Shown here piece by piece: positions 569 through 58,825 of a DNA stretch of 64,000 nt (its first letter is position 1; every line of letters begins with the position of its first letter). Source of the stretch: Urechis unicinctus (lineage: Eukaryota; Annelida; Polychaeta; Xenopneusta; Urechidae); the NCBI GenBank assembly GCA_034190875.2, contig CM067343.1, forward strand, positions 28,002,936 through 28,066,935. Reading direction: 5' to 3'. Under the pieces are notes generated by a model, which made no database searches, was not told where the DNA came from, and was given only the letters and a program-made list of their open reading frames with translations. Made by a program: the position numbers and the translations under genes.

Positions 569-939
569 CTTCCATGTGATGACCAGTTTGCCTTTGCCCC
601 GATCCTCAGTACACACCCCCTCTGGGTTGGAATAAGGTATCTTCTGTGGCGTCTCACACTCAGAAGTGAACATGCTAGGGTCACTTTCACCCAAAGCATT
701 CACTGCACGCACATGGAATGTATAGATGGCCCAGGGAGAGAGAGCTATTTCAGCGGATGACACGGCGGCTGGCACAGTGAGAGCTCTTGTGTACTCTTCA
801 GCGCCATCAAACGAGGTGTTGTAGTAGACACGGTACTCTATGATGGGCTCGTTGTTATCGTTGCCAGGGCTCCAAGTAATCTCGGCCGAGCTAGCGACAC
901 ACTTCGGCCTGAGGACGTCCACTACTGGGTCAGGACGAT
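569..939 (-). CDS. Nrg: Exon 13: FnIII-1 and start of FnIII-2
   Basis: The acceptor GATGAAAG|AT gives the expected TVK-DRPDPVVDVL junction, and the donor is ACATGGAAG|GTAGAG; 371 nt, phase 1 to phase 0. The exon encodes AEITWSPGNDNNEPIIEYRV, then YYNTSFDGAEEYTRALTV, then LSPWAIYTFHVRAVNALGES, then KIPYSNPEGV and KGKLVITWK. A second in-frame acceptor at 988-989 would add 16 residues before DRPDP. Confidence 0.92.
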
Positions 940-3900
940 CTTTCATCACATCACACACACATTCAAAATCATACACGGTTGCATAACCTATAATGTTAAG
1001 TACACACAGCCTTGTCCATTATGGAATAACAGCCTTGTTTTATCAATTTCAGGGAGGGAATTTCTGCTAACACTCTACGTTGTATCACTATATACCAACA
1101 GTTAAACATTGAGAAGGGCTACGATTAAGTGAGGGGTTGGGATTGAGAGTGGAGGCAAGATGCCGACCTTTAACGGTCAGAGTTGCATCATGCGAGGCCT
1201 CATCCAGGTTATTGCTAGCCAGACATGTGTACACCGCTGTGTCTGAAGCCTTCACCATCTTGATCTTGAGGGAGTGATCCACCGTGTTGATCTCCATGTT
1301 GCCCTCTTGCAAGAAGTTAATGGCAACGTTATCACGGAGCCACGTGTACGTGAGATGGTCCGCTTCATTGGGGTCTGTGCTGGCATTACAGCGGAACACC
1401 ACATCCACACCTGCATTCACAGTCTGCGAGCGGGGTCGAACGTGGAGGGTGGTTCTCTCTGAAAGGGAGCAGAAGGACACAATAAGACATGATGAGGATG
1501 AAGGCAACATGACGTGATGAGGATGAAGGCAACATGACGTGATGAGGATGAAGGCAACATGACGTAATGATGATGAAGGCAACATGACGTAATAAGGATG
1601 AAGGCAACATGACGTGATGAGGATGAAGGCAACATGAATATTCATTCGAATATTTTACATTTTTCAGGGCCTTGGTCAAGGTCACTGATAACCTATCCAA
1701 TTTACAGTCCCATCAGGAATAACAATAGGACTTCAAATTATTTAGAAAATTGTGTTCACATGGAGCAAGATAAGCTGACAATATCAGAACCAGATGCCTA
1801 AAGAGACCAAAGACTGGGATGACACTTGACAGCTACCATGAACAGGGTCATCAATGGCACCGTACTCACCCCTAACCACAAGGCTTCCACTTGTTTTAGC
1901 ATCGCCAAACTTGTTAAGGGCATAGCACTCATAAGTACCATTATCTCTCAAGCTGACCGCCTGTTAAACAAGTTCACAGCAAGGTCAGTTCATCTCTGGC
2001 ATAAAAATCGTCACAGCCTCCAATACATAGCTATGTCCAGCACTATTAAGCTAAGTCACATGAGTTCAGAAAGTTCTTCTCTGTAGGTTATGAGAATAAG
2101 TGTGTAAAACGAATATATAAAAGTGAGATAGTTTCACGGTTGAGAGAGAAGGTTACACCGTTACCTTTATGGTAAGATGGCCAAGTCGGTTGACAACAAA
2201 CTTGGGTGTTTGTGGCACTGGCACGAGAGGTTTACCTCGTTTCCATGTGATGACAGGATCAGGTGCCCCAAACACCTCACACTCGAGGGTAGCATCCTGT
2301 GTAGAGGCTGCCTTGGTGATGGGGGCGGGAACCTTGATGAAGGATGGCGGCTCAGCTGAAAATAAAAACAACCACCAATCACCAACCACTACACCATTGA
2401 AGACAAACCATCCTAAACTATATGGCTGGCATTTTAAAGTGTCATGTATGCAATCACAATAATGTGAACTCCATTCAAGGGAGGTGTGACTCCTATAGGT
2501 CAAGTTTTTGAGGTGTGCCGGAAACTGAAGTTTTTAAATTGTTGCCAAGTGATATCCACTGAATGTCAATCATATGATGGACACAGCTTCATGATGTGAG
2601 TTATAGACTGGCCCTCATCTCACCATACTCGGGGGGGGGGGCACTTAAGTGTATAGAGGTAGTACACATGTGCCGCGTGGGTATGGGTACGCTTTTTTGC
2701 CATTTTCACCTTGTACAACGGGTTATACACTAGCATAATACCTTCTAGACGGGGTATGCTTTTGTCCATTTTCAGTTTTATCCAGTTTTCGAGGTCGCGC
2801 GGCACACCCCTATCCGGGATAAGGGCAAGTGCCCCCCCACCCCCCGAGGCCATACTCACACCATCAAATAATTGCCTGGTTCATGCAATACCAATATCTC
2901 ACATGATGCAATGCCATAATCAGGCTCACAGGGACACCTTGCAACTGTTACAAATGGTTTGCGTATGTTTGTAGTTTTTCAACTGACAAGGATGCAATGG
3001 AGACATAAGTGCCAATCATATAAAGCTGCTTTCATTCTCAAGGTAGCGATTTAATCAGAAGTGAATATTCTGTGAATATTCTGGATTGGAGTGTGATCCA
3101 CATTGATAACAGAGAAACAGCTTCTGTAGAGATCATCTTAAAACTGCATGAATTTGTCTAACTTTGCAGGTGCAAAGGAGTATTACTGGAAGCATAATTG
3201 TCTACCATTAAAACACAAAATTGCAAGGCAAAAAAAAAGGGTTCGTGACATATACCAGCATGTCCAAACCGTTCAAACGTACCCATGACATTGAGATAAG
3301 CATTCCTGTAATCATATCCATGTTGGTTGGAAGCATTGCACTGAATGACAGTGGCATCAGACTGTGTGAGGTGGACAAACGTGAGGGTCGTTTCCGTCAC
3401 TATGCGCCGTGGGTCGGCAGGAACATCTGTACACGTAATTTACCATCACTTCTACAACTTAAAGTTAAACACACATCTTTCAGGAATTTGATTTCAGTCC
3501 AAGCTGAATTTGAATCAATATATTAAATATACAGCAGTGATATGAGTGAATGCATGTTATGACTGTGTGAGAGACTGACTTTCTATGGGCACCCCGCCGA
3601 TGTACCACTGCAAGTTGGGTTTGGGCACGCCTCCAGCCGAGCACGTAAATGTGGCATTCTCCTCCTCGGATGAGCGGACGTTATGTGGCCCGTCGATGAG
3701 GAAAGGCATGGCTACACAATAGACACACATCCATCATTAATCATCACATGTGTCAATCAATCAAAGACATATAAGTCAATGAATACCATACAAATAGGCA
3801 AATCAATTGCATACAATCAATAAACACTGACGCATTGACCACAATGTATTAATTTACTTCATGTGTAAGCAGGGCATGAAATTGGCAAATATGTGAATTG

Positions 3901-6900
3901 CCCCTTCAACAAAATCAACTGGCCCTGCCATTATTTAACTGGTACTCTCAAAGGTCTTGTTATTCACAATGCAGAGGGCATTAAAACTCTCTTGACAATA
4001 GCTATCATAAGATAAACATGATCGAAGCAGTTGCAGTAAACCATAAGGCAGTATTCTTCATTCAGTTACATAACAATTATTAGCGACATAATAAAGAATA
4101 AGAAGAAGTGAAAAAGCTGGGTGAAGGTGGACTTTTTTTTAATTCATCACCGTCGCATTTAGGTAAACCTTTGACGAACTTGTTCATTCGTTAAACTTGG
4201 GAAAAATAATTAGCCTGAAGTATCAAATCAGCGGTGCATAGCAGACTTGTAACGCCGGGAAAATTTGACACTCATTTGCAATGTGACATGGACTGACCAA
4301 TAAAAACGAGTTATACATCTCATTGATAATCGTGTGGTTTCGTCAAAATGGAAATAACCGAAGTACTCTGGATAAAAGCGGAGGTGAAGTCAATTGGGTC
4401 AGTTAACAATTTCAAACGATCGCGCGGTTGTCAACATGGTTATCTTTTGACGTCGAGCATGGTTACAAGTAAGGAAATTCATTATGGTATGGCCACATAG
4501 AAACCTGCAAGCTCCAGGGGCGGTCCTATCAATGGATCGATAGATTATGAAGAATGCAGGCGGACTGGCTCACAATGACAGCCACGCCCCCTGGCAGCAT
4601 GAGACTTACACTCCACGCGGACTTCGATGGTACGTTTGACAGGCTGTTGGCCGGGTCCGTTTGTGGCCAAGCACTCGTACTTGCCGGCGTCGCCAATCTC
4701 AACGTTGTGGATGACCAGCTCCATGTTGTGACTTTCCTCAGGGAAGACGGCGTTGTCCGGCATGGGCTTGAGCACGCGGTGCCACCTTACATCCGGGGTG
4801 GGACTGATACAGCCAGCTACGTTTAATGTCTCCTCGTATTGGATCAATGGCAACAGATTGTTAAATATAATTTAAAGCCTGATTTAGGAAGGGTATGCAG
4901 ACAGAGAGCAAATATTTTGTATTCATTGTGAGGAACTAACTGACTCAGTAGAAAGCCAGTAAAAAACACTTCCTCAGCCATACATTCATAACTGATGCTT
5001 ATATACTCACTATCCCGAGAAGATGCATTTCATCTTGAGCAGACCACCGCTCACGACCACCGGGAAGTCCTCAGACGACCACTCGTATTTGGCCAGCTGG
5101 TTAGATGGGGTATCTGGATCCACCAAAACTCATCATGTAAAATAAGATGGATCACTTTAACATACACATGGTTATCAGGCATACTTTGAAGATTTTACTT
5201 GATACGAAAGCAACTAAAATTTGCACCGAGGACAAACAAAAAGCCTAATGGCAAAAGTCGGGTAAACTGAAGAATGAAGATGCAAATGTATTGTATAAAA
5301 TTATGGACATAATATATATGTATATATATAGCTTTAACACAAAAAACTGGATAAACTGTAAGCTCAAATTATGATACATTTTTTGTTGATAACATGCAGG
5401 GTGCAGTGAACTATGAACATGCTTCCACACAATAGCAAGTGAAGGTTATGATCTTGCTGATCCTATACAAGTTGAAACAACTATGAGAAAGAACTAAGTT
5501 AATAGACTACTGAATTGCTACTGAATTAAATGCCGTCCGTCATCCAAGCCTCATCAACCAACCGACCCTCAGCTGATAACTGTTTCAACACCCGAGACGT
5601 GATGGCCAAATGCTTATAATAATCACTGTGGATGCATTGACAACAGAATTACCATCCTTGATAACTACCTCCGTTGAGTTGGATCAAAAGTTCAGTCTAA
5701 GCTGGATCAGCACGGGTCGGTTAGTCAAGCTCACTACGGAGGGTTAACTGAAAGCCTAAAATCATGCCTGAACCACTATCGTTTTGATGTTGACCGTCAT
5801 GATTTTAAACGTCAATCGCCATGATGCACCATGACACAGAATATAACTGATACCCAAGTGATTATGGTTAAAGGAAACTCTAGAGACTACTTACTACAAG
5901 CTAAACAACTACATGAAGACACTCAACACAAAGAACACGTGACTCAACAAAGCACAAACACAAGGAGTTATTCACCCAATCATATCTCCACGTCACATAC
6001 ACTTAAGGGTTATGCATGTCTAACAAACGTACAACACGTTACCAAGGGGAAGTGCGGGTTGTGCATGTATCTGGGCCTACTCCTGGTCTCAACATGACCA
6101 GTGTATCGACATATATGAGGCAAAACAATTCAATTCAAACAATATTGAGGTTGAAAGGTGGCACATTTTGAAAGACGGAAGGTCCACCTTTTGCAAGAAG
6201 CAAGAGGGAGGCAATGAGCTGGATCTGACTCAAAGAGCAAGAGAGAAAGGCAAAAGAAGGCAAGAAACCACAGATATGGGAAGCAAAAGTAAGATGGATG
6301 AACGAACATGACAGAACACAAGGCCATCCACTTCATCAACATCCACTCCATCAACAACACAGGCCATCCACTCCATCAACAGAACACAGGCCATCCACTC
6401 CATCAACAGAACACAAGGCCATCCACTCCATCAACAGAACACAAGGCCATCCACTCCATCAACAGAACACAGGCCATCCACTCCATCAACAGAACACAGG
6501 TCATCCACTCCATCAACAGAAAACAAGGCCATCCATCCCATCATCAAACAGAACACAGGCCATCCACTCCATCAACAGAACACAGGCCATCCACTCCATC
6601 AGTCAAAACACAGGCCATCCACAACAACAATCAAAAGACAGGCCACAGGCTAATACCGGATAAATAAATGGCCGTACATCTTCAAACCCAACTACTGCCA
6701 TAAAGCTGACAACAAATCGACAGCCTTCTGATCACCCCCCTCTGGGAAAAACCCGGCACAGAGCTTCATCCCAAACCTGGCCTATCTAGCATCTTGTACT
6801 GTGTGACTTAGCTTGTATAATACAATGCATCATGCTCTGTCAACACCAATAAACATCATATGGTCAGCCAACAACATAGATTACGTCAGCACCGCTGATT

Positions 6901-9524
6901 GGACCCCATAATGAAGCAGGGACGTTTGTGGTAGAAGCTTACAAGTTACCCCGACAGTATCACAAATAATGAGCTCTGCTTGGCCTTAAACACATTCAAC
7001 CCAAAAACAAATTGCAATTGGTCTGAAATATTTGATACACATGTACATAATTTTGACATATCAGCTGAACGCGGAAATTTCACCAATGAGCTGATATCCA
7101 GCTTTATATGTGTCAACATTTTTAATTACACATCACTGGTCAAAGTTTGTAAGAAATTTTAAAGAGGTCCTCCTTTTGAAATCCTTTCGTGATGAGGGAA
7201 GCTACGAGTGCCAAGCAGAGCCCATGATGAGCGACACTATCTAGGTCATCACAACACTTCAACCACAAATTCACATCCACATCCCTGGTGACAGCATCAC
7301 TGATATCAGGCACAGATCGGGTGGCCATGCCAAAAACAGAAAAAACTCAGCCATTGCTGTCTCGCTTACTTCCTACAAAAAAAAAAGTTGCCACTCATTA
7401 CATTCAGACTCGGGTGATATTCATTAGCGACGTAAAAAAACCCGTAAAAACCTCCACAGCGTGTCAACCAAAGAAAGCTACAGATCGATACAAGAATGGA
7501 TTGAAAAATCAAGACAAGCGTTAGCATTGCTCTGTAATGTAAGGCGCTTTTACTCAATCACCGAAAAAACCATGTAAGGTGGAGAAGAAAGCGAGAGAAG
7601 AAAAAGAGGCAAGAGGCAAAGACAGTAAGAGGAGCAGTGAACATACCTCCCATGGCAGACACCATGATTTTCTGATTATCTCCCTGCATAAGTCCATTAA
7701 TGACCGTATTCTCGACTATACACACGTACGTGGACGTCGGCGAAGTTAACTGGTCCTCGGCTTTTATATTTGCAATGTATAGGTTCCCTATCCAAAGTGC
7801 AGTGGGATGGAGACAGAACATAGTAGGCATGGTTAGTGAATGACATGCTGTTGACACATAGGTTATAACAATACACCATCCACCCCACAACATCATTCTC
7901 CAGGCAAGCTCTCGGCTGTGCAGTTGACCAATCACAGTCCTTGAACAGTCAGCCAATCTCAAGCCTTCTCACATATCAACACTATGGTAGATAATCTTTT
8001 TGTAAAATATTTTTGATTAATAAAAAAACCCAAAAAACAAGGATGAATGCATAAAATGGCACATATGAGAGATATATGGTTTGTTGTGATTGGCTGACTG
8101 TTACCATGTGTGCATTTCACTTAACGACGGGGACTACCTGGGACAGGTAAGATCTTGTGATCATCACCAACAACGTATGAACGCAACACTTGGTTGCGTA
8201 CAACACATGAGTAGACATGACCCTCTATATCACTGCTGCCATCATCCATTTCCACATGGGCAAAATACAGATTGCCTAGAGACAGACACGTTACATACAG
8301 CAAGCTGACAATCACTCTTGTGAAATCTGCTGGTATATCATATGGAAAATTCGACAAATTTACACATCAACACAGGTCAGCTGATCATTCTACTATTCAT
8401 GACAGAATGATTGATTTAAATCCTGAAAAAGGAGGCACCCTTTGTTTTAACTGATACCACAAATACTCAGGCAGCTGAAAGAGCAATCAGACATCGCAGT
8501 GAATGAACATGATATGCAGAACATTCATACAGGCGCCAAGCCAGAACGTTATGATGACACAGCATTTATCGTAGCGACCCCGCTCAGAATGGTACATCAA
8601 TGGACGTACCACTGTAATCGGTGGTGACCCTGGCATCGACATCAATAGGTTTAAGTCTCTGCCCGGGACTGCTGATTCCCCAGTAGATGGAGCCACTTGG
8701 GTAGCTCATGGGAGGCTCACACTTGAGACGTAGAGCCGAGCCGATGGTGGGTCGGTGAACCTGTACCTCTTTCTTGGTAAACGACATCAGTACTGCAAAA
8801 CAAACATGGTAAGTGATGTGCAGATGAACTCGACTCCGGTTCCATCAAAGACATACAACAGGAACACTCAGTTATCTTAAAGATTCTAGCTGTACAAGGT
8901 GTTTTTGATAAGACTCAGTAGATATCCTGCCATGCTGCCTACAGAAGTATCACCATAGGGGGACGATATACCCTCATCACTCACCTGCCCGCTTGAGATG
9001 CGTCTTCTGACTGACAGCAGTACCCAGCATGTTATGGGCAAAGCACTGGTACACGCCCTCATCTTGTTCGCCTGGCTGCTTGATGGTGATTGTACCCGAA
9101 CCAGGGGTTCCAACAAAGTTACTGTAATCACTGATGTTGAACTTAACCCCATCTTTCTCCCACCAATATCTGATAGGAAACAAGGTCAAATATACGGGTA
9201 GAAACATGCATGTGGTGTGTCAACTAAGACCTGAACGTCGTGAGCAGGAGTGAATAGCTAAGGGAAGAGAAGGTGAACTTTGACATCATTATTGATTGAC
9301 TATAGAATGGATCCTTTATGAAGGACGTACATGGCAATTATTTGAGAAACATTAGTATTATGTGACCAGTTAAATGACAAGTAAGCAATCAATGAACACA
9401 TAACAAACTACACGGGTCATTGAGGACATAGCTTAGATACGTGGTAACTGTTGAGCATATTAAAGCAACACTAAAGGAAAAACCTCAATTAGTAATCAAC
9501 ATCTTTACACACACACACCCATAT

Positions 9525-9616
<92 letters not shown>

Positions 9617-12600
9617 TTTGTGAATTAAGTTAATAAACATAAATAAGCAACAAATAAATGTACTCAACACCACCCTATATCTACTTTTAACCATATAAGG
9701 CATGTCTAGAAATACATATAGTGCTGTTCATGTACAATCATGTATTGCTAAGCTTACAAAGACAGCTCCAGTCATTCAAGCCTGTCACCTCACCTGGGAA
9801 CAGGGCTCCCAGTCGCTTCACACAGTAACTTAACTTCAAAATCTTGATTTTCCTGAAATGCTACTTCAGTCGCAGCGGTTCTTACAAATTGTGGTGGTGT
9901 TTTCACTAAATCAACAAAAAAAAAAAGAACAAACAAACCCAAACTTAGCACCAACCAATATTAAACCAATCTACAAAAAAAACAAATAATTCATGCGAAA
10001 GACACACAGCAGCCATAATGGGAACACCAACCTAAAAAAACAAAAATAAAAACTGAAATTATAAAAAAGGCACCAAAAACAGGGGAGACTACATGCTAAG
10101 TGGAGGGACAATCCTGGCCCAGTAGAGGGCAGCACTTACTCAGGGGCAGGGTTCCCCCTTGCTTCACAAATGAGTGTGGCTCCCTCGTTGTCAAAGGCTT
10201 GCTCTTTTCTAGGCTGCTGGACAATCTGCGGGGGGTTCTTCGCTGAAATAGAACCGAAGCAAGCAGGGGTGTTATGAGGGGGTCAATCAAATCGAGGCTT
10301 GTTTCTTTGACTATTCATCTCAACCAACACTACATATTAGCAATGATACCTAAAAATTGTGATTCCAATTTATCATCAACCCAAAGCGTTTCCCCGCAGG
10401 TAAACCCGCTTTAGGTAGATGATAGATTGGAATTACAATCAAACTTCAATACACAGGTAAGTCTCGTTTAATTTTTAAATTTAAGTGGCAAGGTATGAAG
10501 AACATGATACACATTCAAATAGAGGAATGGAATACAATGCAGTTAAAAAACAGTCAACGTTGGAAACTAGCCATTAACAAAGCACTTGATTGCATGCGAT
10601 ATGCTGCAATAAAAACAGAACTTGTCCAGTTAATACTGTGGACGCATTCTCTCTAGAAACAAAAGAGAAGAATGAAATGAGTGGCCAGCATGTCATGTCA
10701 TCAATAGATGTCAACAACAATAAAATTCAGTAAATACAAACATTACATTTCAATTGCAAAATTTGAGAAGAAACATCGGTTGCGATAAACTATGTATGTT
10801 AAGAGGGTACCGCTAGTAGGCAATATCTTAATCAGCCACATGCAAACCGTGCCGGGACAGAGCAGAGTGAGCATGGCTTGTGACAATTGTTTGACAAGTG
10901 CTGAGAGGTGTTAGTTTGTGAAGAGACAGTATGATTATAGCTCAGGTGTTAGTGCAATTAACTAGAAATCACAGGTGTTACAAACAGTTTCCTTAACAAC
11001 CCCACAGCAACAATTTGAACAATCAGTGGCAGTAAAGCTTAAAATTTCTACGCAATTTGATCAAGGTTTACCTTGATTCTTATCACACCATTTCCCTGAT
11101 AACCTACATGCTGTCTAAATACACTTTCCCCCAAAAAAGATTTTCTACTTAGAGAGAATCACCACCCCCCCCCCCCACTTGGTTTTATTGATCTCATCAA
11201 TGCCACAATTTAACAAGGTATTACAAACATCCTGCTCAAATTGAATAGTAAGGAAAGGTTGATTCATAAACATATATGTTGTTGAAACTAAATCATCTTC
11301 AAATTCATCATGCAATTTAACCAAATAATTGATATTTGTCAATGATCCTAGCTTCTTTCTCAGATCTAACTAAACTAATGCTATAAATCAAAGATCTATG
11401 AAGCGAGTTCCAGCAGATGGGTGCATGGCTGCACCTTAAGAAGGTCTGCATTGGTAGCAGGTGACGTTGATCATCAAAATATTGACGATAAACCGTGTTT
11501 TTCTCAATTGCCACACAGTACACAGTGATGAGTGAGAGAGTGCACGCGTTCATCTAGAGGCTGGACTACTACAGCACAATACACGAACACAAACCGGCTA
11601 CTCTACTTACGATGAATTGAAGGAAAGCCGTGTGACCATTGCCACAACCTGCCTAAACAGCCAATAGGAAGAAGCAACACAAAACCATGCATACATAAAT
11701 CAGCCAATAGTTGCCTTTCTGACAGCATAGTAACAACAAGCAGCTCATTGTGATGACAATTTGTGCACATTGTGATCATTAAAACAAGAAAGCTGTAAAA
11801 CTACATTATACGTTACATATTTGGTTAGGGTGCGTTTCATATTAGATATTGTGTCCAAATTATCAATTAATACCAAATTTAATTGCAATATTAATGGAAG
11901 TTATATTACGCTGAAATAAGGAAAATATTGATTTGCAAAGAAAAGGCAGCAGCAAAGCATGCAAATCAAAATTACACTGAGTGAGGCATGGAAAACAACG
12001 AGGCCAAATTAATACAACGAGAGGGTACAGCCAATACACATTCCGATCAAAATGAACTTTGTTGTACATACGCATATCAAGGTCATTCAAAGCTTTTGTT
12101 CACCGAGATATATACGGATATTCTGGTATGAGATGTGATGATGTTAACTGTCTTTGAAGGTGCTGGTGGTAAGTGATGCTGAATGCATTCAATATGGTGT
12201 CTGAGATGAGAAGCAGAGCCATGAATGAGTGATACCAGCCATGCTGTTCTTCTGGCTGAATGAGAATGACATCACCTACACATAGGCTGCTGAGAGTCTC
12301 AGACAAGCTGAAAAGGTCAGTTCTATTTACAAGGCTGGGGGGTATGTAACAAGCAACAATAGCCTGTAGATGGCTATACCATAATGGTTATTCTATGGCC
12401 CGCATGAGATGCCATGAATTGCATAAGCAGATCATTCTTCTCAGATGATCTGAAGAGGATATTAAATATTAATGATATGATCAGCAATAATCCATTCAAC
12501 AGCACCTGATCATGTTGATTGGTCATCTGTTAAAAACAAAATGACCATTTATCAAATATAGCAGGATTTGATAGAAAAGCAATGCACTCGGACATGTAAG

Positions 12601-21100: not shown

Positions 21101-21696
21101 CCTCATACGGATGAATTATTCCTTACCAGCATCGATCGAACCTACCAATGTTTTGTTGAACCATAACCCAGTAGCCGACTACGATGGCTGAGTTTAGTGA
21201 AGTATTCCTTAAAAAAGCTCATAAATGCTTTCGAACAATATACCATTTGACCAATCTTAGGTAGCGAATAGCAAAAAAAATAAAATCGTTGGATTATTGA
21301 TATATAACACTAAGCAAGTAATCTGCAAAGGTAACAACGTCGAGACAACATTTCTGATCCCGTCCGAGTTGGAGGCTGAAACCGCGCCGCTAGTCGGAAC
21401 GTTATGATGGCTATTATTACAAGAGATTCCAAATCCTAACGTTATGACTTTTTACAACATTATGACACAAAATACATGAAAAAAACTCTATGACGACGTC
21501 GGTCGGCTCGTTGAGTAACTGACCTCCAAAACTAAGGTCAAGTTCATATTACTCCTATGTCACCCCAACAAATGCGTAGAGCCAAGGGTGAGTTGACATG
21601 GAAAGACAACACTGCGAATTGCCTACCTGTTTTTTCGGCACTTTCCGCTAAACACCCGGCTGCTATGAGCAGGAGGACGAGGAGGTTGACGGACAT
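569..21696 (-). CDS. Nrg: Neuroglian/L1CAM-family cell-adhesion receptor, 5' part of gene
   Basis: This is a single-pass membrane adhesion receptor of the L1 family. Family members bind homophilically through an Ig1-4 horseshoe and anchor to ankyrin through the cytoplasmic tail. Thirteen exon positions on the minus strand, two of them with duplicate exons, give 732 codons: signal peptide (residues 1 to about 20), Ig1 (Cys49, Cys100), Ig2 (Cys144, Cys204), Ig3, Ig4, Ig5, Ig6, FnIII-1 and the start of FnIII-2. Hallmarks are LMSFTKKEVQVHRPTIGSAL in Ig2, RDNGTYECYALNKFG in Ig5, and EYRVYYNTSF and LSPWAIYTFHVRAVN in FnIII-1, all close to insect neuroglian as I recall it. CDS segments (isoform 2a/5a): 21696-21627, 10242-10140, 9169-8985, 8792-8610, 8275-8138, 5113-5011, 4803-4610, 3711-3580, 3426-3283, 2355-2165, 1960-1870, 1458-1168, 939-569. 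All phases close without a stop. FnIII 3-5, the membrane helix and the FIGQY-type tail would lie beyond position 1. The family assignment is secure; orthology to a given L1 paralog is not tested. Confidence 0.95.
1168..1458 (-). CDS. Nrg: Exon 12: Ig6
   Basis: The borders are CTCCCTTTCAG|AG and GTTAAAG|GTCGGC (non-consensus after GT); 291 nt, phase 1 to phase 1. The exon encodes the whole sixth Ig domain: RTTLHVRPRSQTVNAGVDV, then VFRCNASTDPNEADHLTYTW, then KMVKASDTAVYTCLASNN, then LDEASHDATLTVK. A 25-bp tandem repeat begins 32 bp upstream of the acceptor in the transcript. Confidence 0.94.
1491..1637. repeat. 25-bp minisatellite
   Basis: About six copies of a unit containing GATGAAGGCAACATGACGT, in the intron just upstream (in the transcript) of the Ig6 acceptor. 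An apparent 5' extension of the Ig6 open frame into this array is not coding. Confidence 0.9.
1870..1960 (-). CDS. Nrg: Exon 11: Ig5 C-terminal part
   Basis: The borders are TTGTTTAACAG|GCG and GTTAGGG|GTGAGT; 91 nt, phase 0 to phase 1. It encodes AVSLRDNGTYECYALNKFG, then DAKTSGSLVVR. This small exon completes the Ig5 cysteine pair and matches the insect sequence YTCYAQNKFG in position and spacing. Confidence 0.95.
2165..2355 (-). CDS. Nrg: Exon 10: Ig5 N-terminal part
   Basis: The borders are TTATTTTCAG|CT and ATAAAG|GTAACG; 191 nt, phase 1 to phase 0. It encodes EPPSFIKVPAPITKAAST, then DATLECEVFGAPDPVITWKR, then a stretch ending LGHLTIK. Cysteine, GxPxPxxxW and L-I-K are all in place for an I-set Ig domain. 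Confidence 0.94.
2631..2849. mobile_element. MITE-like inverted-repeat element, copy 1
   Basis: About 219 bp with terminal inverted repeats: the left end reads GGGGGGGCACTT and the right end AAGTGCCCCCCC. An 8-bp direct repeat CCATACTC flanks it (2623-2630 and 2850-2857) and looks like a target-site duplication. The interior shares CACTTAAGT, TAGAGGTAGTA and GCCATTTT-ACCTTGTA with the copy at 43.1 kb. There is no coding capacity, so it would be non-autonomous. It sits in the intron between the two Ig5/Ig4 exon pairs. Confidence 0.75.
3283..3426 (-). CDS. Nrg: Exon 9: Ig4 C-terminal half
   Basis: The borders are TACGTGTACAG|AT and GTCATGG|GTACGT; 144 nt, phase 1 to phase 1. It encodes VPADPRRIVTETTLTFVH, then LTQSDATVIQCNASNQHG, then YDYRNAYLNVM. 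This closely parallels the insect neuroglian Ig4 end, where NATNSLGYVYKDVYLNV stands at the same place. Confidence 0.93.
3580..3711 (-). CDS. Nrg: Exon 8: Ig4 N-terminal half
   Basis: The borders are CATTGTGTAG|CC and ATAGAAA|GTCAGT; 132 nt, phase 1 to phase 1. It encodes MPFLIDGPHNVRSSEEEN, then ATFTCSAGGVPKPNLQWY, then IGGVPIE. The exon carries the first Ig4 cysteine, the GxPxPxxxW motif and one NAT sequon. It is too short to appear as a long open frame and was found by following the phase. Confidence 0.93.
3712..4609. other. Neuroglian intron 7, no other feature
   Basis: AT-rich intron between Ig3 and Ig4 exons. No open frame, repeat or RNA gene was recognised. A CTCF-like core (GCCAGGGGGC on the minus strand, about 4583-4594) lies just inside the donor of exon 7, but it departs from the consensus at two core positions. 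Confidence 0.6.
4610..4803 (-). CDS. Nrg: Exon 7: Ig3 C-terminal half
   Basis: The acceptor GGCTGTATCAG|T joins TA|T to give IFSGY-PTPDVRWHR, the expected Ig3 continuation. The donor is GTGGAGT|GTAAGT; 194 nt, phase 2 to phase 1. The exon encodes NMELVIHNVEIGDAGKYEC, then LATNGPGQQPVKRTIEVRV. The open frame runs on upstream of the acceptor but loses Ig similarity there. Confidence 0.92.
5011..5113 (-). CDS. Nrg: Exon 6: Ig3 N-terminal half
   Basis: The borders are GTGGATCCAG|AT and TCGGGATA|GTGAGT; 103 nt, phase 1 to phase 2. It encodes DTPSNQLAKYEW, then SSEDFPVVVSGG, then LLKMKCIFSG with the first Ig3 cysteine. The acceptor has a poor pyrimidine tract, but its phase fits exons 5a, 5b and 7. 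The intron upstream in the transcript is 2.5 kb. Confidence 0.88.
6322..6628. repeat. 27-bp minisatellite
   Basis: About 11 copies of a unit containing CCATCCACTCCATCAACAGA, some truncated. The period is divisible by three, so several frames stay open and give histidine/serine-rich translations with no protein-like features. Confidence 0.92.
7179..7310 (+). pseudogene. Ig-domain fragment, Dpr/DIP/lachesin-like, broken
   Basis: In one + strand frame the sequence reads FRDEGSYECQAEPMMSDTI, then a TAG stop (7242-7244), then VITTLQPQIHIHIPGDSIT. The D-E-G-x-Y-E-C-Q-x...E-P-x-M-S stretch followed by x-H-I-P is the usual end of the first Ig domain in neuronal Ig-superfamily members of the Dpr, DIP, lachesin or neurotrimin kind. 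It is antisense to neuroglian and does not match any neuroglian Ig, so it is not a piece of the host gene. The internal stop and lack of flanking exon signals suggest a relic. Chance similarity of a short stretch cannot be excluded. Confidence 0.4.
7647..7787 (-). CDS. Nrg: Exon 5b: Ig2 C-terminal half, version b
   Basis: The borders are CACTTTGGATAG|GG and ATGGGAG|GTATGT; 141 nt, phase 1 to phase 1. It encodes NLYIANIKAEDQLTSPTS, then TYVCIVENTVINGLMQGD, then NQKIMVSAMG. All Ig2 core positions seen in 5a are kept (NLY, A, Y-C-V, N, G-D, KI), but most surface positions differ. Inclusion of both 5a and 5b would keep the frame but would put two copies of the same half domain in a row, so exclusive use is the sensible reading. 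Confidence 0.87.
8138..8275 (-). CDS. Nrg: Exon 5a: Ig2 C-terminal half, version a
   Basis: The borders are GTCTGTCTCTAG|GC and GTCCCAG|GTAGTC (a weak donor); 138 nt, phase 1 to phase 1. It encodes NLYFAHVEMDDGSSDIEG, then HVYSCVVRNQVLRSYVVG, then DDHKILPVP, carrying the second Ig2 cysteine (residue 204). The pattern NLYxAxV...Y-C-V...N...G-DxKI is the family signature of this half domain. Exon 5b, 350 bp further on, has the same role and phase. Confidence 0.87.
8610..8792 (-). CDS. Nrg: Exon 4: Ig2 N-terminal half
   Basis: The borders are TGTTTTGCAG|TA and TACAGTG|GTACGT; 183 nt, phase 1 to phase 1. It encodes LMSFTKKEVQVHRPTIGSAL then RLKCEPPMSYPSGSIYWG, which is the most diagnostic L1/neuroglian stretch in the window. 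It ends DARVTTDYSG and continues into one of two duplicated exons that complete Ig2. Confidence 0.95.
8985..9169 (-). CDS. Nrg: Exon 3: Ig1 C-terminal half
   Basis: The borders are TTTCCTATCAG|A and GCGGGCAG|GTGAGT; 185 nt, phase 2 in and phase 1 out. It encodes YWWEKDGVKFNISDYSNF, then GTITIKQPGEQDEGVYQC, then FAHNMLGTAVSQKT. This supplies the Ig1 core tryptophans, the second cysteine (residue 100) in the classic D-G-YQC context, and one NIS glycosylation sequon. Only one copy is seen, so both versions of exon 2 must join to it. Confidence 0.93.
9525..9615. repeat. (TA)n(TG)n compound microsatellite
   Basis: About 20 TA units followed by about 22 TG units, in the intron between exon 2b and exon 3. 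Confidence 0.97.
9794..9905 (-). CDS. Nrg: Exon 2b: Ig1 N-terminal half, version b
   Basis: The borders are GATTTAG|TG and CCCAG|GTGAGG. The exon is 112 nt, phase 1 in and phase 2 out, exactly like exon 2a. It encodes KTPPQFVRTAATEVAF, then QENQDFEVK, then LLCEATGSPVP with the conserved Ig cysteine. It is three codons longer than 2a and open throughout, with good splice sites, so it looks functional and not like a dead duplicate. It would replace the first strands of Ig1, the tip of the L1 horseshoe. Confidence 0.85.
9906..10139 (-). other. Intron between exons 2a and 2b
   Basis: 234 bp, strongly A-rich on the plus strand, so the transcript is T-rich and gives exon 2b a long pyrimidine tract. 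It is far too long for simple steric blocking of double inclusion, so exclusive use must come from another mechanism or from decay of the frameshifted product. A perfect CTCF core match lies 5 bases inside the exon 2a donor. Confidence 0.8.
10119..10133 (+). promoter_or_regulatory. CTCF-like core motif
   Basis: CCAGTAGAGGGCAGC fits the widely used CTCF core CCASYAGRKGGC and its RSY extension at every position. It begins five bases downstream (in the transcript) of the first intron base of exon 2a. In vertebrates CTCF bound downstream of a weak exon can slow polymerase and favour inclusion. That role here is inference. Confidence 0.4.
10140..10242 (-). CDS. Nrg: Exon 2a: Ig1 N-terminal half, version a
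   Basis: The borders are TATTTCAG|CG and CCTGA|GTAAGT. The exon is 103 nt, entering in phase 1 and leaving in phase 2. It encodes KNPPQIVQQPRKEQAF, then an acidic stretch, then LICEARGNPAP with the first Ig1 cysteine (residue 49). A second exon with the same role and phases lies 234 bp downstream in the transcript (9794-9905). Because 103 and 112 are both 1 mod 3, inclusion of both would shift the frame, so one is chosen per transcript. Beyond the K-PPQ start and the CEA-G-P-P end, the two differ at most positions. Confidence 0.88.
10356..10439 (+). other. Strong 33-bp-stem hairpin (possible pre-miRNA or foldback element)
   Basis: The arms 10356-10388 and 10407-10439 pair over 33 positions with two mismatches (10378/10417 and 10382/10413) and an 18-nt loop. 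Two of the pairs are G-U type when the plus strand is transcribed but become C-A mismatches on the minus strand, so a plus-strand RNA folds better. Length, loop and stem are in the range of an animal pre-miRNA. A short foldback transposon is equally possible. It lies 114 bp upstream of exon 2a in the host intron, antisense if plus-transcribed. Confidence 0.45.
12969..13174 (-). other. Possible acidic alternative exon in intron 1
   Basis: The minus strand has a good pyrimidine tract and tandem acceptors (TTAACAG|CAG|GT), followed by an open stretch: GDLGPTTIPQPAVTSTES, GEFEELERDDDDDDEFED, NYDDEVSVIYPG, ending at TGA 12969-12971. The phase fits exon 1 (EKT-AGDLGP). A strong donor GAA|GTGAGT at 13049 lies inside but leaves phase 0, which does not fit exon 2a or 2b. 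If used to the stop, the product would be a short secreted acidic peptide. The poly-Asp run comes from a GAT microsatellite, so the whole thing may be chance. Confidence 0.25.
15145..15193. repeat. (GAT)n microsatellite with (GGT)n tail
   Basis: About 12 ATG/GAT triplets followed by five GTG triplets, in intron 1. Confidence 0.95.
15400..15598. repeat. 21-bp minisatellite
   Basis: About nine diverged copies of a unit containing CATCATGGCAACGTGCCAC. Intronic and non-coding in appearance. Confidence 0.88.
16604..16626. repeat. (CA)n microsatellite
   Basis: Eleven CA units in intron 1. Confidence 0.93.
18250..18650. repeat. 30-bp minisatellite
   Basis: About 13 copies of a very regular unit containing CACCACCCACATGACGCCCC. 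Because the period is 30, long frames stay open on both strands (Thr-His-Met-Thr-Pro-Arg repeats), but nothing else suggests coding. Confidence 0.95.
21627..21696 (-). CDS. Nrg: Exon 1: start codon and signal peptide
   Basis: The exon gives 23 codons plus one base. It begins MSVNLLVLLLIAAGCLA, a hydrophobic leader with a likely cleavage after GCLA, followed by the charged ESAEKT. The start codon has A at -3 (CAACATGT), a good initiation context. The exon ends ACAG|GTAGGC in phase 1, which joins in frame to either Ig1 exon, giving EKT-AKNPPQ or EKT-VKTPPQ. Its reading frame, its hydrophobic core and its phase match to both downstream exons support it. There may be non-coding 5' exons further out. 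The 217 bases just upstream are a 35-bp tandem repeat. Confidence 0.85.
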
Positions 21697-21698
21697 GT

Positions 21699-21915
21699 TG
21701 ACTAGAAGCACCCTCTCTAGGCTGTGAACACGGCGACCAGAAGCACCCTCTCCGGGCGGTCGTCCCGATGACTAGAAACACCCTCTCCGGGCGGTCTTCA
21801 CGGTGACTAGAAGCACCCTCTCCGGACGGTCTTCCTGGTGACTAGAGGCACCCTCTCCGGGCGGTCTTGGTGCTGACTAGTGGCACCCTCTCCGGGCGGT
21901 CTTCCCGGTGACTAG
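21699..21915. repeat. 35-bp repeat abutting the neuroglian start codon
   Basis: Six tandem copies of a GC-rich 35-bp unit containing CACCCTCTCCGGGCGGTC and flanked by GACTAG. The last copy ends three bases from the start codon (CTAGTCAACATG on the minus strand). If the transcript starts upstream, this array is the 5' leader. If not, it is the core promoter region. The copies differ by a few substitutions each. Confidence 0.9.
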
Positions 21916-24280
21916 ACGGATCCAGGCCGACCCCGACACGGCACGGCAGGCGGCGTCACTGAGAAGGCTTCACCTGTTCACATCCAACACAAAATCTGTT
22001 CACATCGAAGCCCAGAACGGCCACATCAGCATGATCAAGCGCTATGGGAGCGGCTTATGGACCGATCACTCCTAATGCGTGAGAGAAAAAATGGGTGCCG
22101 CAGTTAAAGAAAAATGAGGCACAACGGAGCAGCTTGTCGTTGGCAAGCCGGCTGTGTTCGCTCTAAAGGGGACATGATCCGGGGTTAGAATAGGCGAGAG
22201 TAGCTAAGTCTATTGTAACGGGGTGAGTGAGTTATCACGTCTTTCATACCACCGGAGGTCACATAGCTGCGGTGAGAAAGATCAACACCTTTTTATTTAT
22301 TTATATCATAGATTACAAGTTGACTTCCCAACACGGATAGGGCGATGATTAGACGGAATCGCGACTTGCGATACGTAAAACTGGCGCTTGCTTCAATACA
22401 CCTTGACATAATTCTCACGAGATGAACTTTTCCATGGTGGACATGTGTAACTCCAGGGTTTATTCGACATGCATTGCAGTCGCTACGTGAGCAGGATTTC
22501 GTTGAAACCTTGCTTTGAAACCAACCTGTTTGGAATCAAGGTCACGTAAAAGTAAGATAATCTCTGTTAACATTCTCCTTTATGTGTAAGTATGCAGAGT
22601 AAAGTGAACAGTATTCATGTGCGTAGTGTTTGTGAAGAGGCCCCTCTGTCGAGTTACATTCCCTTCACGACATCACGAGGACAGACATGTTGTATCACAC
22701 AGCATCAACACATGTCATCTTACAGTAATATCCTTCTTCTGACAGATTGTAGCGATTAGCTTCAGAGAACAGCTCATTTTGCAGAGCGCTGTGTATCTTA
22801 CAGCAAGCCATAATATCGCGTTAACATATGCAATTAATTCGATTCTAGCATATAATGATTACAAACAACCCAGGAAGAACATCGGGCGGAAGGTAATACT
22901 TCGTACCATTACCGGATGCCAAGCTCTACAGTAAATTAATTCGCGTTTATAAAACATGGAACACAAACAATGTCAGTATCTATCTATAATTAAACCCATA
23001 TGTTATAACCACCCCAGTTAATTAACCACATGTCGCCGAAACAGACTGTCCGGAGCACACAGCCTGTCCGGTGCGTCAGCAGGATTACCAGCGCTGGAAG
23101 TGGGGAGGGATAGTGGTGTGGGGTCACACCAACAAGTCAATCATTGTGCCGTAGATCGACCTTGACCCGAGGAAGGTGAGGTTCAGTGAGGGATGATGAC
23201 AGAAGCAGGTGCGTTGAATGACGGTAACCACTCACTCCTCGCGGCTCGTACCCTCAATAAATATTTACCTACCCACTTCACGGCTCGATATACACACAAA
23301 GGTCGAGGTCACGATGGAGATTATATAGTAACCTGTCGGGAGTATCCTACAGCGTTAAGCAGCTGTTCTCGCCCGTTCATCACGACCTGACGAGGACAAT
23401 GAGACCAGAAGCGCTAGTCCCGAGCTGATTTATGTCTGTATCAACAAATCCACATGGTATTTTCAACGCTCTGGAATGACCTTGGCTGAGTTATGACCTC
23501 GAATGAGGTCCGATCGAGCAGGAAATCTGGTAAAGGTATCAAACAACACATTGGCACTGTTGGAGTGTAGCAGGATATAGCGGTCGCCACAGACATAAAT
23601 CACCTGCATTTGACAGCTACCGGGTACCGGAAGGCTCTGTAGTTCCCCTCAACGGAAACTATTGGTCATTTTCCATAACCTCCGACGAGGTCACGGGGTT
23701 TACCGGCTGCGCGGTAAATTCACCAATATCCATTGACATCATAGCAGTACGTGCCAAGACAAGTTACTTCATAGAAATAGCAGATACGAGATGTCAGTCA
23801 AATGCAGCAGCGAGACCGCTCCACATCACCACGAGGCGTAAAGTGCGTACGCAAATAAACCTTCAGACGAGTCTTAATCGACCATTATATCCCATCTACG
23901 ACATGAGGGACTCATTTTAAGCAGAATACAACACGAATTATGTGCATGGTCGAAGGAACAGGTAGGGCGTATAACTAGGTCAAGCATTTGACAACAAACG
24001 TGGTTTAAATGGCTAAATGCCCTATTTGATTAGTTCAACGCAGGGTACCGTCTTCGTCGGTATCCAATCGATCGACAGAATGAAATACCAAATGATATCC
24101 ATCATTCATGAGAAAATGGTAAATCATTATTCAACCCATATTCCAGGCTCGAGAACATTGCACCATTTTTGTCACTAAACAGTCCCCTAAGTACGAAAAC
24201 GACATCTTAAAGGCTCGTGTTTTTTTTTCTTTTCGATCCACAATTCGTCACCGCTGACAAAACGCTGAATGGCCGCATAA
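21916..24280. other. Upstream region, no gene seen
   Basis: Sequence upstream of neuroglian. No protein-like open frame, RNA gene or repeat was recognised. It may contain the promoter or untranslated first exons, which cannot be placed from sequence alone. Confidence 0.5.
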
Positions 24281-52684: not shown

Positions 52685-54200
52685 TTTCGTTTTCATCTCG
52701 TAGATGAATCCGCGATAACAGCTTTGATAATTTACCGAGTTGTGTTAGTCTTTAGCACGGCTAAGTACGTACCAAAGGGATATGTATTATAAACAGCGGG
52801 ATTGACAACCCATGCTGTTGACTGCGTTACTTCACGAACCAGCACATCGCACCCGACTGTTTGAGTGTGATTAACTACCTTGCATGAGGTACGCCATTAT
52901 TCCTGGATGTATCGTCTTGTATCCCTCTATGGGGTCCGCATCCAGTTGAATGACACCACGTATAATCAAATGGATGCGTCTTCGTTGATTAATCAACATT
53001 TTAACTCAGTTCTGATGAAGATAAACGAGGCAGATCCTCGAATGAAGTAGATGTGTATTATACGCCATGTTACCTCATCTATTACATGTAGACGGACACA
53101 CGGACGCCTGTAATATATTTCAATATCAATATAGCCGGTCAGCAATATGGCATGTCCTGAACCCATCAATGCTGCCTAGCATGGATCGCGTCCTTCCAAA
53201 TTGGCTGTCGGTTGTCTTACGTCCCTGGTAATGTATATAATGGCGACCATTTGTCTCCGTACATTTATGTTCATGTGTATTAAGTATGGTTTAAGACGAA
53301 AGACTCCCAGCTGTATAAGCCAACAGAATACTGTGTTGTTAATGCTTTATTCCATATGTTTGGGACAACGCAGCATTTGTGCACCCATTAAGTGCCGGGA
53401 CTCGCCTATCAATAGCAAGTGCGTTTTTTTGTCCTCTTGAAACGTACCCGTCAAGTGACTGTGTGGTCTGCTTAATGATGCCATTTTTTCTGATAAAGCG
53501 CAATATCGATTCTGCTCTCAATAATGTCACGGTTTGTTCTGAGTGAAGTGACGTTTGGTAGTGGTGTCCTCACCTTTGGCGGGTCAAGTAGCTGTGAGCC
53601 GCATCCCATGAATTGATAGATAAGGGGCCCTACAGGATAGTTGTTCACTGGGTACACGCCAACGATCATCAAACCGAGTAGTAGACAGCAAACAATATGC
53701 GCTACATCAGTTTTGAATGTAAAATGTTTTCGAATGGGCCGTACTTCAGGGCCATCTTTCATTCTGATTGACGCTGATATCGCATGTGGCAGTGAAAGCA
53801 AGAAGTTATCGCCAAGGCTTTAGTAACTCGAGGACGTCGATATTAAAACCTGATTGATTTTACAGCGGTATATTGTGTCGGTGGTCGCACAGCACACAAT
53901 GATACTAGTTCTTACATACATTCGTATTGTTATCACCCATTTTACTGCAAAGATGGACTGTGCCTTGTAAGAACGATGTAAATTAAAAGCAATTGTGCAT
54001 AATGGTGAGTTGTGATCGATTTCATGTGCTTAATGTGGGATTGTGAAGACGTATCGCTCAAGTGTATATCTTTTTAACGATATCAACAAACTTCGAGTGT
54101 ACGGTGAGATATTAAAAACAGCCCATGATTGATTTTTACAGCGTACCAGGCGATGCGCTGTGCATATGTTGTAAAAGCAAAGTGGTATGCTGTAAACATG
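52685..54200. repeat. Segmental duplication, copy A (segment Y)
   Basis: Matches 56,192-57,120 (copy B) and 61,345-62,285 (copy C) over long stretches, for example GTACGCCATTATTCCTGGAT and GGTCCGCATCCAGTTGAATG. It is more diverged than B and C are from each other and carries a 345-bp extra block. It leads into a 43-bp array. Confidence 0.9.
53496..53842. mobile_element. 345-bp block present only in copy A
   Basis: Copies B and C join GATAAAG directly to AAATTAAAACCT. Copy A has about 345 bp in between, starting CGCAATATCGA and ending CGTCGATATT, so AATATCGA/TCGATATT forms an 8-bp inverted repeat at its ends. It could be an insertion in A or ancestral sequence lost from the B/C ancestor. The open frame across it has no known similarity. 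Confidence 0.5.
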
Positions 54201-55510: not shown

Positions 55511-58500
55511 TTATCTGCACCATAAACTTGTACATCGCGGCAATGCTGGCAGTTGTAGATCAGAGGTGTTGATTATCTGCGTACATTCTGATAACGCGTG
55601 ATAACGTTACAACAAATGACATTGCGGCGATCATGTTTAAACATGCTGAGAAAATACGCATTATATCATGAATACTTGTAAAAATGTTTTGCGGCGAAAT
55701 AAAAGTTACTGGGATATATCGTTCTAGCAGCATGGAAACTCAGTAAGGCCACATTTGTCAATTCTTTGTAGTTGCCTTTTGAAGGTCCGTCCTTGATGAT
55801 GTGTATTTTGTTGGCCTTTGTTTGTACATCCCCGATAATGCGTATCAGGTTGGACATTGGTTGTCGCAAATCCTTTATCAATATCTGTGGTCGAGTTCCA
55901 TTGCAGAGCCATCAGAAAAAAACCAGGTGATAAATGATCTCGCCTATCTATAAGAAATATCATTCTATCGTGACGTGGCTATGCGCTCTGTTTGGGAGCA
56001 TTATAATTACTGATAAGGGGTAATATTTATTTTGCAATCACATTGGTAGCAGTTTTACGAGAGAAGTGGCTTGTGGTTTAGGTCTCCTTCCCTCGACGAC
56101 TATTTGTTAACACAGTTTACCGTGGAACAGATCCATATGGAACGTGAGATTTGAGGCAACACTTGAGATACGAAGCGTCGTTAAAAGATGATGTTCGTTT
56201 TCATCACCTAGATGTATCTGCTATAACAGCTTTGATAATTTCCCAAGATGTGTTAGTCTTTAGCACGGCTAAGTACATTCCAAAGGGATGTGTGTTATAA
56301 GCAGCAGGATAATCAACCCATGCTGTTGACTGCGTTACTTCACACAGCAGCACGTCGAACCCGACTGTTTAAGTGTGATTAACTACCTTGCATGAGGTAC
56401 GCCATTATTCCTGGATGTATCGTCTTGTATCCCTCTATGGGGTCCGCATCCAGTTGAATGACACCACGTATAATCAAATGATTAATCAACATTTTAACTC
56501 AGTTCTGATGAAGATAAACGAGGCAGATTCTCGAATGAAGTAGATGTGTATTACACGCCATGTTACCTCATCTATTACATGTAGACGGACACACGGACGC
56601 CTGTAATATATTTCAATATCAATACAGCCGGTCAGCAATATGGCATGTCCTGAACCCATCAATACTGCCTAGCATGGATCGCGTCCTTCCAAATTGGCTG
56701 TTGGTTTGTCTTACGTCCCTAGTAATGTATATAATGTGACTATTTGTCTCCATACATTTTTGATCGTGTGCATTAAGTATGGTTGACACGAAACACTCCC
56801 AGCTGTATCAGCCAACAGAATGCTGTGCTTGTTAATGCTTTCTTCCATATGTTTGGGACAACGCAGCATTTGTACACCCATTAAGTGCCGGGACTCGCCT
56901 ATCAATAGCAAGTGCGTTTTGACCTCTTGAAACGTACCCGTCAAGTGACTGTGTGGTCTGATTAAGGATGCCATTTTTTCTGATAAAGAAATTAAAACCT
57001 TATTGATTTTACAGCGGTATATTGTGTCGGTGATCGCACAGCACACAATGATACTAGTTCTTACATACACTTTAACTTTCACGGCAAAGATGGATTATGC
57101 TGTGTAAGAACGAGGTTAGCTAACATTAATTGAGCATAATGGTGAGTTGTGAACGGTGTTAACCAACATCTCATGTGCATAATGTGGGTTGTTGAACGAC
57201 GTTAACTAAACGCTCATGTGAATATCAGCGAGTTTTTAACGATATCAACAAACTTTTCATGTGTATAATGGTGAGATGAGAGTGATGTTTACAAACAGCC
57301 CATTGACATAATGGGAAGTTGTCAACGACCAGGCGATGCGCTGTGCATAATGTAAACTAAAAGCAAAGTTATTAAATGTATGCTGTAAACGATGCTGTGA
57401 ACTAATGGTCAAAGTGGACAATAATGTGTTATGAATGACGCTAACTAACAGCCTAGGTGGATAAAGATGTGTTATGAATGATGCTCATTGACAGCCCAGT
57501 AGTGATGTGCTATGAATGGGGCCAACTAACAGCCGAGCAATGATGTGTAATGAATGGTGCTAACTAACAGCCCGGGATGATAATGATGTGTAATTAATGG
57601 TGCTCACTAACATCCCAGGAGGATAATGATGTGTAATGAATGGTGCTAACTAACAGCCCGGGAGAATAATGACTAACAGCCCCGTAATAATGTAATATGA
57701 ATGGTGTTAACTAACAACCAAGGAAGATAATGATGTGCTATGATTGCTGAAGCTGAATACAACACTATGCGAGGAAGACATAGTATTAGCAACAGTGTTG
57801 CTCTTATATCAGATTGCATTTCTTCGTACCAAGTTCATAAACCTCACATCGTAATACCGTTTCCACACTCCATATGAACGAGCCATGTAACGACTTAAAA
57901 ATGCAAAGCAAACCGTTTATGAATTCAGTCCAAAGTTTAAATTATCGTCCTCAATGACAGAGTGCAGTGCGTCTATGGAATTCTATTGGCGTATTATGTT
58001 GCAAATTGTATCTGACTTCCCCATCCGCCAATCAGCCAACAATTTGTCGGTACAGCTCACACAACGGATCCCGAACTAAACCATTCAGTTTGTCTCGAGA
58101 TAGACGGATACATTGGACTCCATAATATTGAACTATTCAAATTCATTCGGTGGCATTCTTCAAAGCAAGATGGCGCCGAGAGGCTTTGTAGTTTATTCAA
58201 TTTCAATGTTTATCTGCTTTTATATTATATCCCAGGTTTCTGTTATCATCTGCTGTTGCCCAATAATGTAGACATACGTCTGTGGCTGATCATACATTTC
58301 CTTTGTTGAACGCACACTGCCTCATCGGCATGGTATGATGTCATTACAAATCTTACATTAGATTGCTAGAACCTTGCAAGGCACTTATTTGTGTCATCGC
58401 TTGAAGGTCTATGACTACACACAGCAGCTAACAGATGCAATATTCTTTTTTAGAATGACCGTGCAAACAAATGGTAGGTTTGAATAAGAAAAGGCCAAGT

Positions 58501-58825
58501 AATTGGTGACTTGTATCCCAATCTATATATTTTGCAGTGACAAACAGATATATCAAAAGTCAACGTCTAGATACCACGTTTTAGAGAGCAGTCTTGTTAC
58601 AAGTTTGTTGTGTTTTAGTGCATAATTGTACTGCGCGTTCACGTCCTGCCTACATTCATAAGTGTTACAGTGGCAATATTGAAGAACTCACATGTCTACC
58701 GTGACACTGGAGAATGAATGCACCTGCAATATTATACATCCAACTCAGATTTACCTTCAACCTCGTCCACGCTCCTCGACACATGTTAACCATTGCTGAT
58801 GTATTGCTGGTATTCTAAGATATAT
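55511..58825. repeat. Segmental duplication, copy B
   Basis: Near-identical to 60,676-64,000 with an offset of about 5.17 kb. It consists of X (55.5-56.2 kb), Y (56.2-57.1), a short 43-bp array (57.1-57.75) and Z (57.75-58.8). The small open frames at 55,666-55,963 and 56,711-57,082 (minus) recur in the other copy but with changed ends and no known similarity. No gene is recognised. Confidence 0.93.

Follow-up and report, generated by a model that had tools for sequence, protein, structure and literature searches.

Half-Ig exons in described genes

Two mutually exclusive half-Ig exons, IIIb and IIIc, alter partner choice in FGFR, a receptor kinase with one such pair only. Among adhesion molecules half-Ig exchange is established for arthropod Dscam, as a preliminary description of the locus reported here had stated: exons 4 and 6 of Dscam1 are mutually exclusive and encode the N-terminal halves of Ig2 and Ig3, and Drosophila Dscam2 makes a binary choice between two alternatives for Ig7 (PMC3364881). 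Proteins of the L1 family are adhesion molecules of nerve wiring and are conserved. Their vertebrate members neurofascin, NrCAM and L1CAM carry small cassette exons; that of NrCAM supplies 19 residues between Ig2 and Ig3 (PMC10903086), and the splice differences between neurofascin isoforms fall outside Ig1–Ig2 (PMC9633819). For Drosophila neuroglian the choice on record, controlled by Elav, is of an alternative last exon (PMC8055025).

Here we describe an L1-family gene of the annelid Urechis unicinctus in which two half-Ig exons, one for the N-terminal half of Ig1 and one for the C-terminal half of Ig2, are present as tandem pairs. We infer that each pair is spliced as a set of exclusive alternatives, and that together the two-by-two alternatives probably tune one adhesive interface. 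Like arthropod Dscam1 (Dscam-hv), the locus has tandem half-Ig exons in an IgCAM. Unlike Dscam1, it belongs to another gene family, has two copies per cluster rather than dozens, and would exchange the N-half of Ig1 and the C-half of Ig2 rather than the N-halves of Ig2 and Ig3; docking/selector pairing of the Dscam1 type was not found among ungapped helices of nine intron pairs. As in Dscam2, the choice within an adhesion ectodomain would be binary, but the locus has two pairs, in Ig1 and Ig2 of an L1 protein, rather than one pair in Ig7 of a Dscam. It differs from FGFR in being an adhesion gene with two pairs. Its family and its Ig1–Ig6–Fn layout are those of vertebrate neurofascin, NrCAM and L1CAM, from which it would depart by exchanging half-Ig exons and, in the case of neurofascin, by placing splice differences inside Ig1–Ig2. 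Neuroglian too is of the same family, but the choice described for it concerns the last exon and not an ectodomain half-Ig.

The preliminary description knew of no half-Ig exchange in the L1 family. Our search agrees: among the matches listed in the open-licence full-text literature, no L1-family gene is reported to have ectodomain exons that exclude one another, or exchangeable ones within Ig1–Ig2. If the reading is true, half-Ig exchange would seem to have arisen in more than one IgCAM family, and a single gene would, given the use of both pairs, yield four versions of one adhesive interface.

An L1-family gene on the minus strand

The window, the whole 64 kb stretch of DNA that was analysed, sits on contig C2 of the 1.19 Gb genome. 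The minus strand of its first 22 kb carries the 5′ portion of an adhesion gene, modelled as 15 exons with both members of each pair counted. A GT follows every modelled exon and an AG precedes every one except exon 1. The exons outside the two pairs are as follows (window coordinates).

21627..21696, minus strand: exon 1, start codon followed by what looks like a signal peptide (judged by eye); ends in phase 1
8985..9169, minus strand: exon 3, constant; remainder of Ig1, from strand C to strand G
8610..8792, minus strand: exon 4, constant; N-terminal half of Ig2
5011..5113, minus strand: exon 6, N-terminal half of Ig3
4610..4803, minus strand: exon 7, remainder of Ig3
3580..3711, minus strand: exon 8, N-terminal half of Ig4
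3283..3426, minus strand: exon 9, remainder of Ig4
2165..2355, minus strand: exon 10, first part of Ig5
1870..1960, minus strand: exon 11, remainder of Ig5
1168..1458, minus strand: exon 12, Ig6
569..939, minus strand: exon 13, first FnIII domain with the beginning of the next one; past the window the gene runs on

Exons 2–13 encode Ig1 to Ig6 followed by the first FnIII domain, which is the layout of L1-type proteins. Compared with PDB sequences, the isoform containing 2b and 5a aligned with neurofascin across Ig1–Ig6 (E 7e-85), ahead of contactin-2 (E 3e-79) and Dscam (E 1e-45); over the whole stretch the bit scores were 289, 271 and 160, respectively, the gap between neurofascin and contactin being small and the comparison one among PDB entries only. 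For the isoform containing 2a and 5b the corresponding scores over Ig1–Ig4 were 227, 144 and 128, again among PDB sequences only. Neurofascin was the best PDB match for both isoforms tried, and Pfam returned Ig-type families in the Ig1–Ig3 stretch of both. Membership of the Dscam family was not supported, neurofascin and the contactins outranking Dscam for each isoform. On this ranking the adhesion gene belongs to the L1 family (neuroglian/L1CAM/neurofascin type), which bears out the assignment made in the preliminary description.

Exons beyond exon 13, which would encode any transmembrane helix and ankyrin-binding cytoplasmic motif of the L1 type, were not found within the readable part of the adjoining sequence that was examined (part of it is unreadable). 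At the other end of the gene a 35-bp repeat array of 6.2 copies (window 21699-21916) adjoins the start codon of exon 1; it probably lies in the 5′ UTR or promoter.

Two tandem pairs of half-Ig exons

The first pair lies between exons 1 and 3.

10140..10242, minus strand: exon 2b, 103 nt, from the start of Ig1 to a point shortly before the C strand; nearer than 2a to neurofascin and to paralog A (see below)
9794..9905, minus strand: exon 2a, 112 nt, alternative for the segment encoded by 2b; the divergent copy

In the transcript 2b comes first and 2a second, with 234 nt between them. Both enter in phase 1, leave in phase 2 and are bounded by GT-AG sites; 2a carries three extra residues before the B-strand Cys. 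The joins 1-2b-3 and 1-2a-3 are both open in frame. When both copies are included the whole model runs into a stop at residue 71, and when both are skipped it does so at residue 87. The coordinates first described are exact, as are the lengths, phases and splice dinucleotides, and the claim that the frame enforces an either-or choice holds for exon 2; the view of 2a and 2b as half-Ig alternatives is likewise backed by the sequence of the modelled exons. As an account of tandem exons in this gene the preliminary description stood for exon 2 and was incomplete, having overlooked a second pair, in Ig2.

8138..8275, minus strand: exon 5a, 138 nt, entering and leaving in phase 1; C-terminal half of Ig2; nearer than 5b to neurofascin and paralog A; peptide NLYFAHVEMDDGSSDIEGHVYSCVVRNQVLRSYVVGDDHKILPVP
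7647..7787, minus strand: exon 5b, the divergent copy, 141 nt, entering and leaving in phase 1; alternative to 5a for the C-terminal half of Ig2; peptide NLYIANIKAEDQLTSPTSTYVCIVENTVINGLMQGDNQKIMVSAMG

This second pair, its members separated by 350 nt, lies 1.5-2.6 kb farther along the gene than the first. As is the case for 2a and 2b, the two exons have GT-AG sites, are similar in length, equal in phase and homologous. Their lengths are such that the frame is kept with 5a and 5b together or with neither, and the reading frame therefore forces no choice between them. When 2b or 2a is combined with 5a or 5b, all four combinations are open to exon 13 (732, 733, 735 and 736 residues); one gene could encode four adhesion variants.

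We propose that two half-Ig exons were tandemly duplicated in an L1-family gene and kept as alternatives, each mRNA taking one of 2b/2a and one of 5a/5b, which would give four ectodomains. At exon 2 the frame would enforce the choice, since inclusion of both copies or of neither would end in an early stop and presumably in mRNA decay; at exon 5, where the frame does not enforce it, exclusion would have to come from splicing regulation.

Homology and constraint

In tblastn searches of the six-frame translation of the 64 kb window, 2b as query found 2a (E 3.5e-4), 2a found 2b (E 2.5e-4) and 5a found 5b (E 2.6e-4). The best downstream local score was 67 for 2b and 69 for the exon 5 pair; the highest that 500 block shuffles gave was 46 in the first case and, again with 500, 49 in the second. 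By these scores the resemblance of 2a and 2b is beyond chance. When the peptides of 14 exons (all but exon 1) were used as tblastn queries, only exons 2 and 5 had a tandem copy in the window, the remaining cross-matches with an Ig pattern being to other Ig exons of the gene and to one fragment on the opposite strand. No further copies of exon 2 were present in the window (matches with E<1 were the partner and the Ig5 exon only), nor of exon 5, for which each query had, besides its partner, one weak match (E 0.89 and 0.93) that lacked an Ig pattern. Relatives of the gene were not found in viral contigs.

At first, second and third codon positions the nucleotide identity of 2a and 2b is 0.73, 0.64 and 0.27, and that of 5a and 5b is 0.39, 0.61 and 0.30; within each pair, ∼70% of third codon positions differ. 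The proteins are nonetheless similar (BLOSUM sums of 90 for the exon 2 pair and 78 for the exon 5 pair), and in a control in which an equal number of base changes was placed at random the observed similarity was reached in 0 of 10000 runs with each of the four copies as the start, a figure to be taken as a guide and not as a probability, because the codon alignment was picked for high similarity, an advantage that the control lacked. All four copies keep an open frame, the Ig core residues and the phase, and all four look coding. With silent positions nearly randomised and protein similarity held, this is the pattern of an old duplication whose two products have each remained a coding exon.

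Paralogs and the divergent copies

Paralog A, an L1-like gene at C2:66956555 (+), has exon phases identical to those of the gene, and exons 1–7 of 82, 106, 188, 183, 129, 103 and 188 nt. It contains a single exon 2 and a single exon 5, whose flanking introns measure 132-160 nt and offer almost no space for extra copies. Paralog B, on contig C16, is 71-85% like paralog A over exons 2–7 and shows a single copy each of exons 2 and 5 in its readable sequence, an extra exon 2 being possible in the unreadable part. Another L1-like locus, at C2:41.17 Mb, is uninformative for copy number: exons 2–5 were not found in the 5.1 kb read there.

Pairwise scores against neurofascin are 70 for 2b and 35 for 2a, and 26 for 5a and 14 for 5b; against paralog A they are 54 and 45, and 77 and 58. 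In both pairs the conservative copy is the upstream one. Exon 5b scores 58 with paralog A as against 55 with 5a, that is, slightly higher or about equal. The duplication of exon 5 may have come before the separation from paralog A; alternatively, 5b may have evolved fast.

A rival account would be that only 2b and 5a are used, and that 2a and 5b are old tandem duplicates, unspliced or spliced as noise. The better match of 2b and 5a to both neurofascin and paralog A is what such an account expects, and the divergent copies could be losing use. However, 2a and 5b have kept open frames, Ig core and phase, with a similarity above all random controls, at a point where third positions are near saturation. 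Their splice sites also speak against it: the sites of all four exons are within the range of the gene's other exons, the acceptors of 2a and 5b have 14 and 11 pyrimidines in 17 (the gene's range is 7-15), and their donors (10.9 for 2a and 8.9 for 5b by donor weights) outscore those of 2b (5.4) and 5a (5.0). We consider it unlikely that the divergent copies are out of use, and prefer the reading in which both members of each pair serve as alternatives.

Two features of paralog A may be recorded here. What appear to be a transmembrane segment and a tail that ends in DTFV are encoded at L014:5700-7800 (C2:66962700-66964800). An ankyrin motif of the FIGQY type was not present in the readable sequence of this paralog.

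How the choice might be made

The copies of exon 2 need not share exon 1; each could belong to a promoter of its own, as part of a set of alternative first exons. Tandem 5′ cassettes are reported for chelicerate Dscam genes (PMC4835542). Intron 1, at 11.4 kb, could hold more first exons, and three frames that open with an ATG and a hydrophobic stretch occur in the 2 kb upstream of 2b; but across these and one longer frame between 2b and 2a there are four phase-1 donors, none of which is GTRAG, and one of the four candidate frames has no phase-1 donor at all. Moreover, promoters would leave 5a and 5b, which are internal, unexplained. Taken together these points make alternative first exons quite improbable. 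That double inclusion or skipping of exon 2 is mainly an off-switch through unproductive splicing, the isoforms binding equally, is more improbable still: the stops at residues 71 and 87 would serve it, but it has no need of a second diverged coding exon under constraint and 5a/5b are incapable of it, both or neither staying in frame.

As regards the means by which a regulated choice within each pair would be made, two mechanisms were rejected. Steric exclusion by a short intron is at odds with the 2b-2a intron of 234 nt, which exceeds the gene's smallest (153 nt), and U2/U12 incompatibility with sites that are all GT-AG and, by eye, U2-type. Pairing of docking and selector RNA was not found among ungapped helices, with intron 1 represented by its last 1500 nt: in each of 9 intron pairs the best helix was matched or beaten in 11-56 of 60 shuffles. 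Rfam returned no family at threshold in the window. Between 2b and 2a there are 8 overlapping T7 words, where 0.16 are expected (they are in part the acceptor tract of 2a), and two copies of GCATG, which we take to be an Rbfox-type motif, where 0.23 are expected; many splicing-factor motifs were tried, and these counts are consequently a lead rather than evidence.

A very stable hairpin (z -8.1) is found ∼100 nt upstream of 2b, at window 10345-10445 on the minus strand. It has 25 further matches in the genome, 12 of which form six opposed pairs 92-94 nt apart, and because of these it is best described as a dispersed inverted-repeat element; a role as regulator or microRNA was rejected.

The putatively exchanged segments and the adhesive interface

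In the neurofascin dimer the G strands of two Ig2 domains merge into one sheet (PMC9633819). The EF and AB loops of Ig1 add intermolecular contacts to the homodimer, the share of Ig1 in the interface being more modest than that of Ig2, and in the complex of contactin with neurofascin the AB loops of Ig1 touch an edge of the opposing Ig2 that consists of its N-terminus and G strand. Dimerisation of neurofascin is substantially lowered by T216A, and a quadruple mutant that includes I217D forms no homophilic clusters (PMC9633819).

The segment encoded by exon 2 covers the AB loop of Ig1 (strands A to B), and that encoded by exon 5 covers the end of Ig2 with its G strand (strands E to G), a part central to the interface as published. 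By comparison with neurofascin the duplicated segments match two parts that touch across the adhesive dimer, and for this reason the choice of exons most likely tunes homophilic and heterophilic binding. The earlier placement of Ig1 in the adhesive part of the protein accords with the contact that its AB loop makes with the opposite molecule in dimers of neurofascin (PMC9633819).

The published numbering of neurofascin was reproduced by the chain sequence (F168, T216/I217). A MAFFT alignment that has no gap from the F-strand Cys through these residues places Ser-Tyr of 5a, Gly-Leu of 5b and Ser-Ile of paralog A opposite T216-I217; paralog B, counted likewise, has Thr-Ile, within TRTIQQG (THTIQQK in neurofascin). 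Another global alignment places a 2-residue gap in the G-strand stretch of 5a, where MAFFT has none. On the ungapped reading 5b alone would be without a hydroxyl residue at the position of T216. From this we infer that isoforms with 5a would favour self-binding and that those with 5b would not, or would bind something else, the prediction being that 5b isoforms self-dimerise less than 5a isoforms; the choice of 2a or 2b would modulate the same contact from the opposite side. At a residue where a single change weakens neurofascin dimers 5a and 5b differ from each other, which makes splice-controlled adhesion directly testable.

A more tentative extension is that the AB-loop alternatives of Ig1 and the G-strand alternatives of Ig2 meet across the trans dimer and that matched isoforms adhere preferentially. 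This would amount to a minimal Dscam-like two-by-two code, evolved independently in the L1 family; we see it as possible rather than probable.

Other sequences in and around the window

Exon 13 (Fn1), alone among the exons, has four further copies that are 63-71% identical, occur on both strands and lie no more than 1.7 Mb from the gene.

L016:2048-2368 (C2:27954983), minus strand: copy of exon 13, with three stops
C2:26312064, plus strand: copy of exon 13
C2:26698965, minus strand: copy of exon 13
C2:26901269, plus strand: copy of exon 13

The intron after 5b contains, on the opposite strand, a fragment that is similar to an Ig domain around its F strand (E 0.017 with exon 11 as tblastn query) and that presumably resembles Ig proteins of the Dpr/DIP type.

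7182-7235, plus strand: Ig-like fragment, SFRDEGSYECQAEPMMSD

The far end of the window holds a 3.3 kb segmental duplication, its copies 96% identical, together with a related shorter copy.

55511-58825: first copy of the segmental duplication
60676-64000: second copy of the segmental duplication
52686-53498: related shorter copy

Arrays of a 43-bp satellite surround the segmental duplication.
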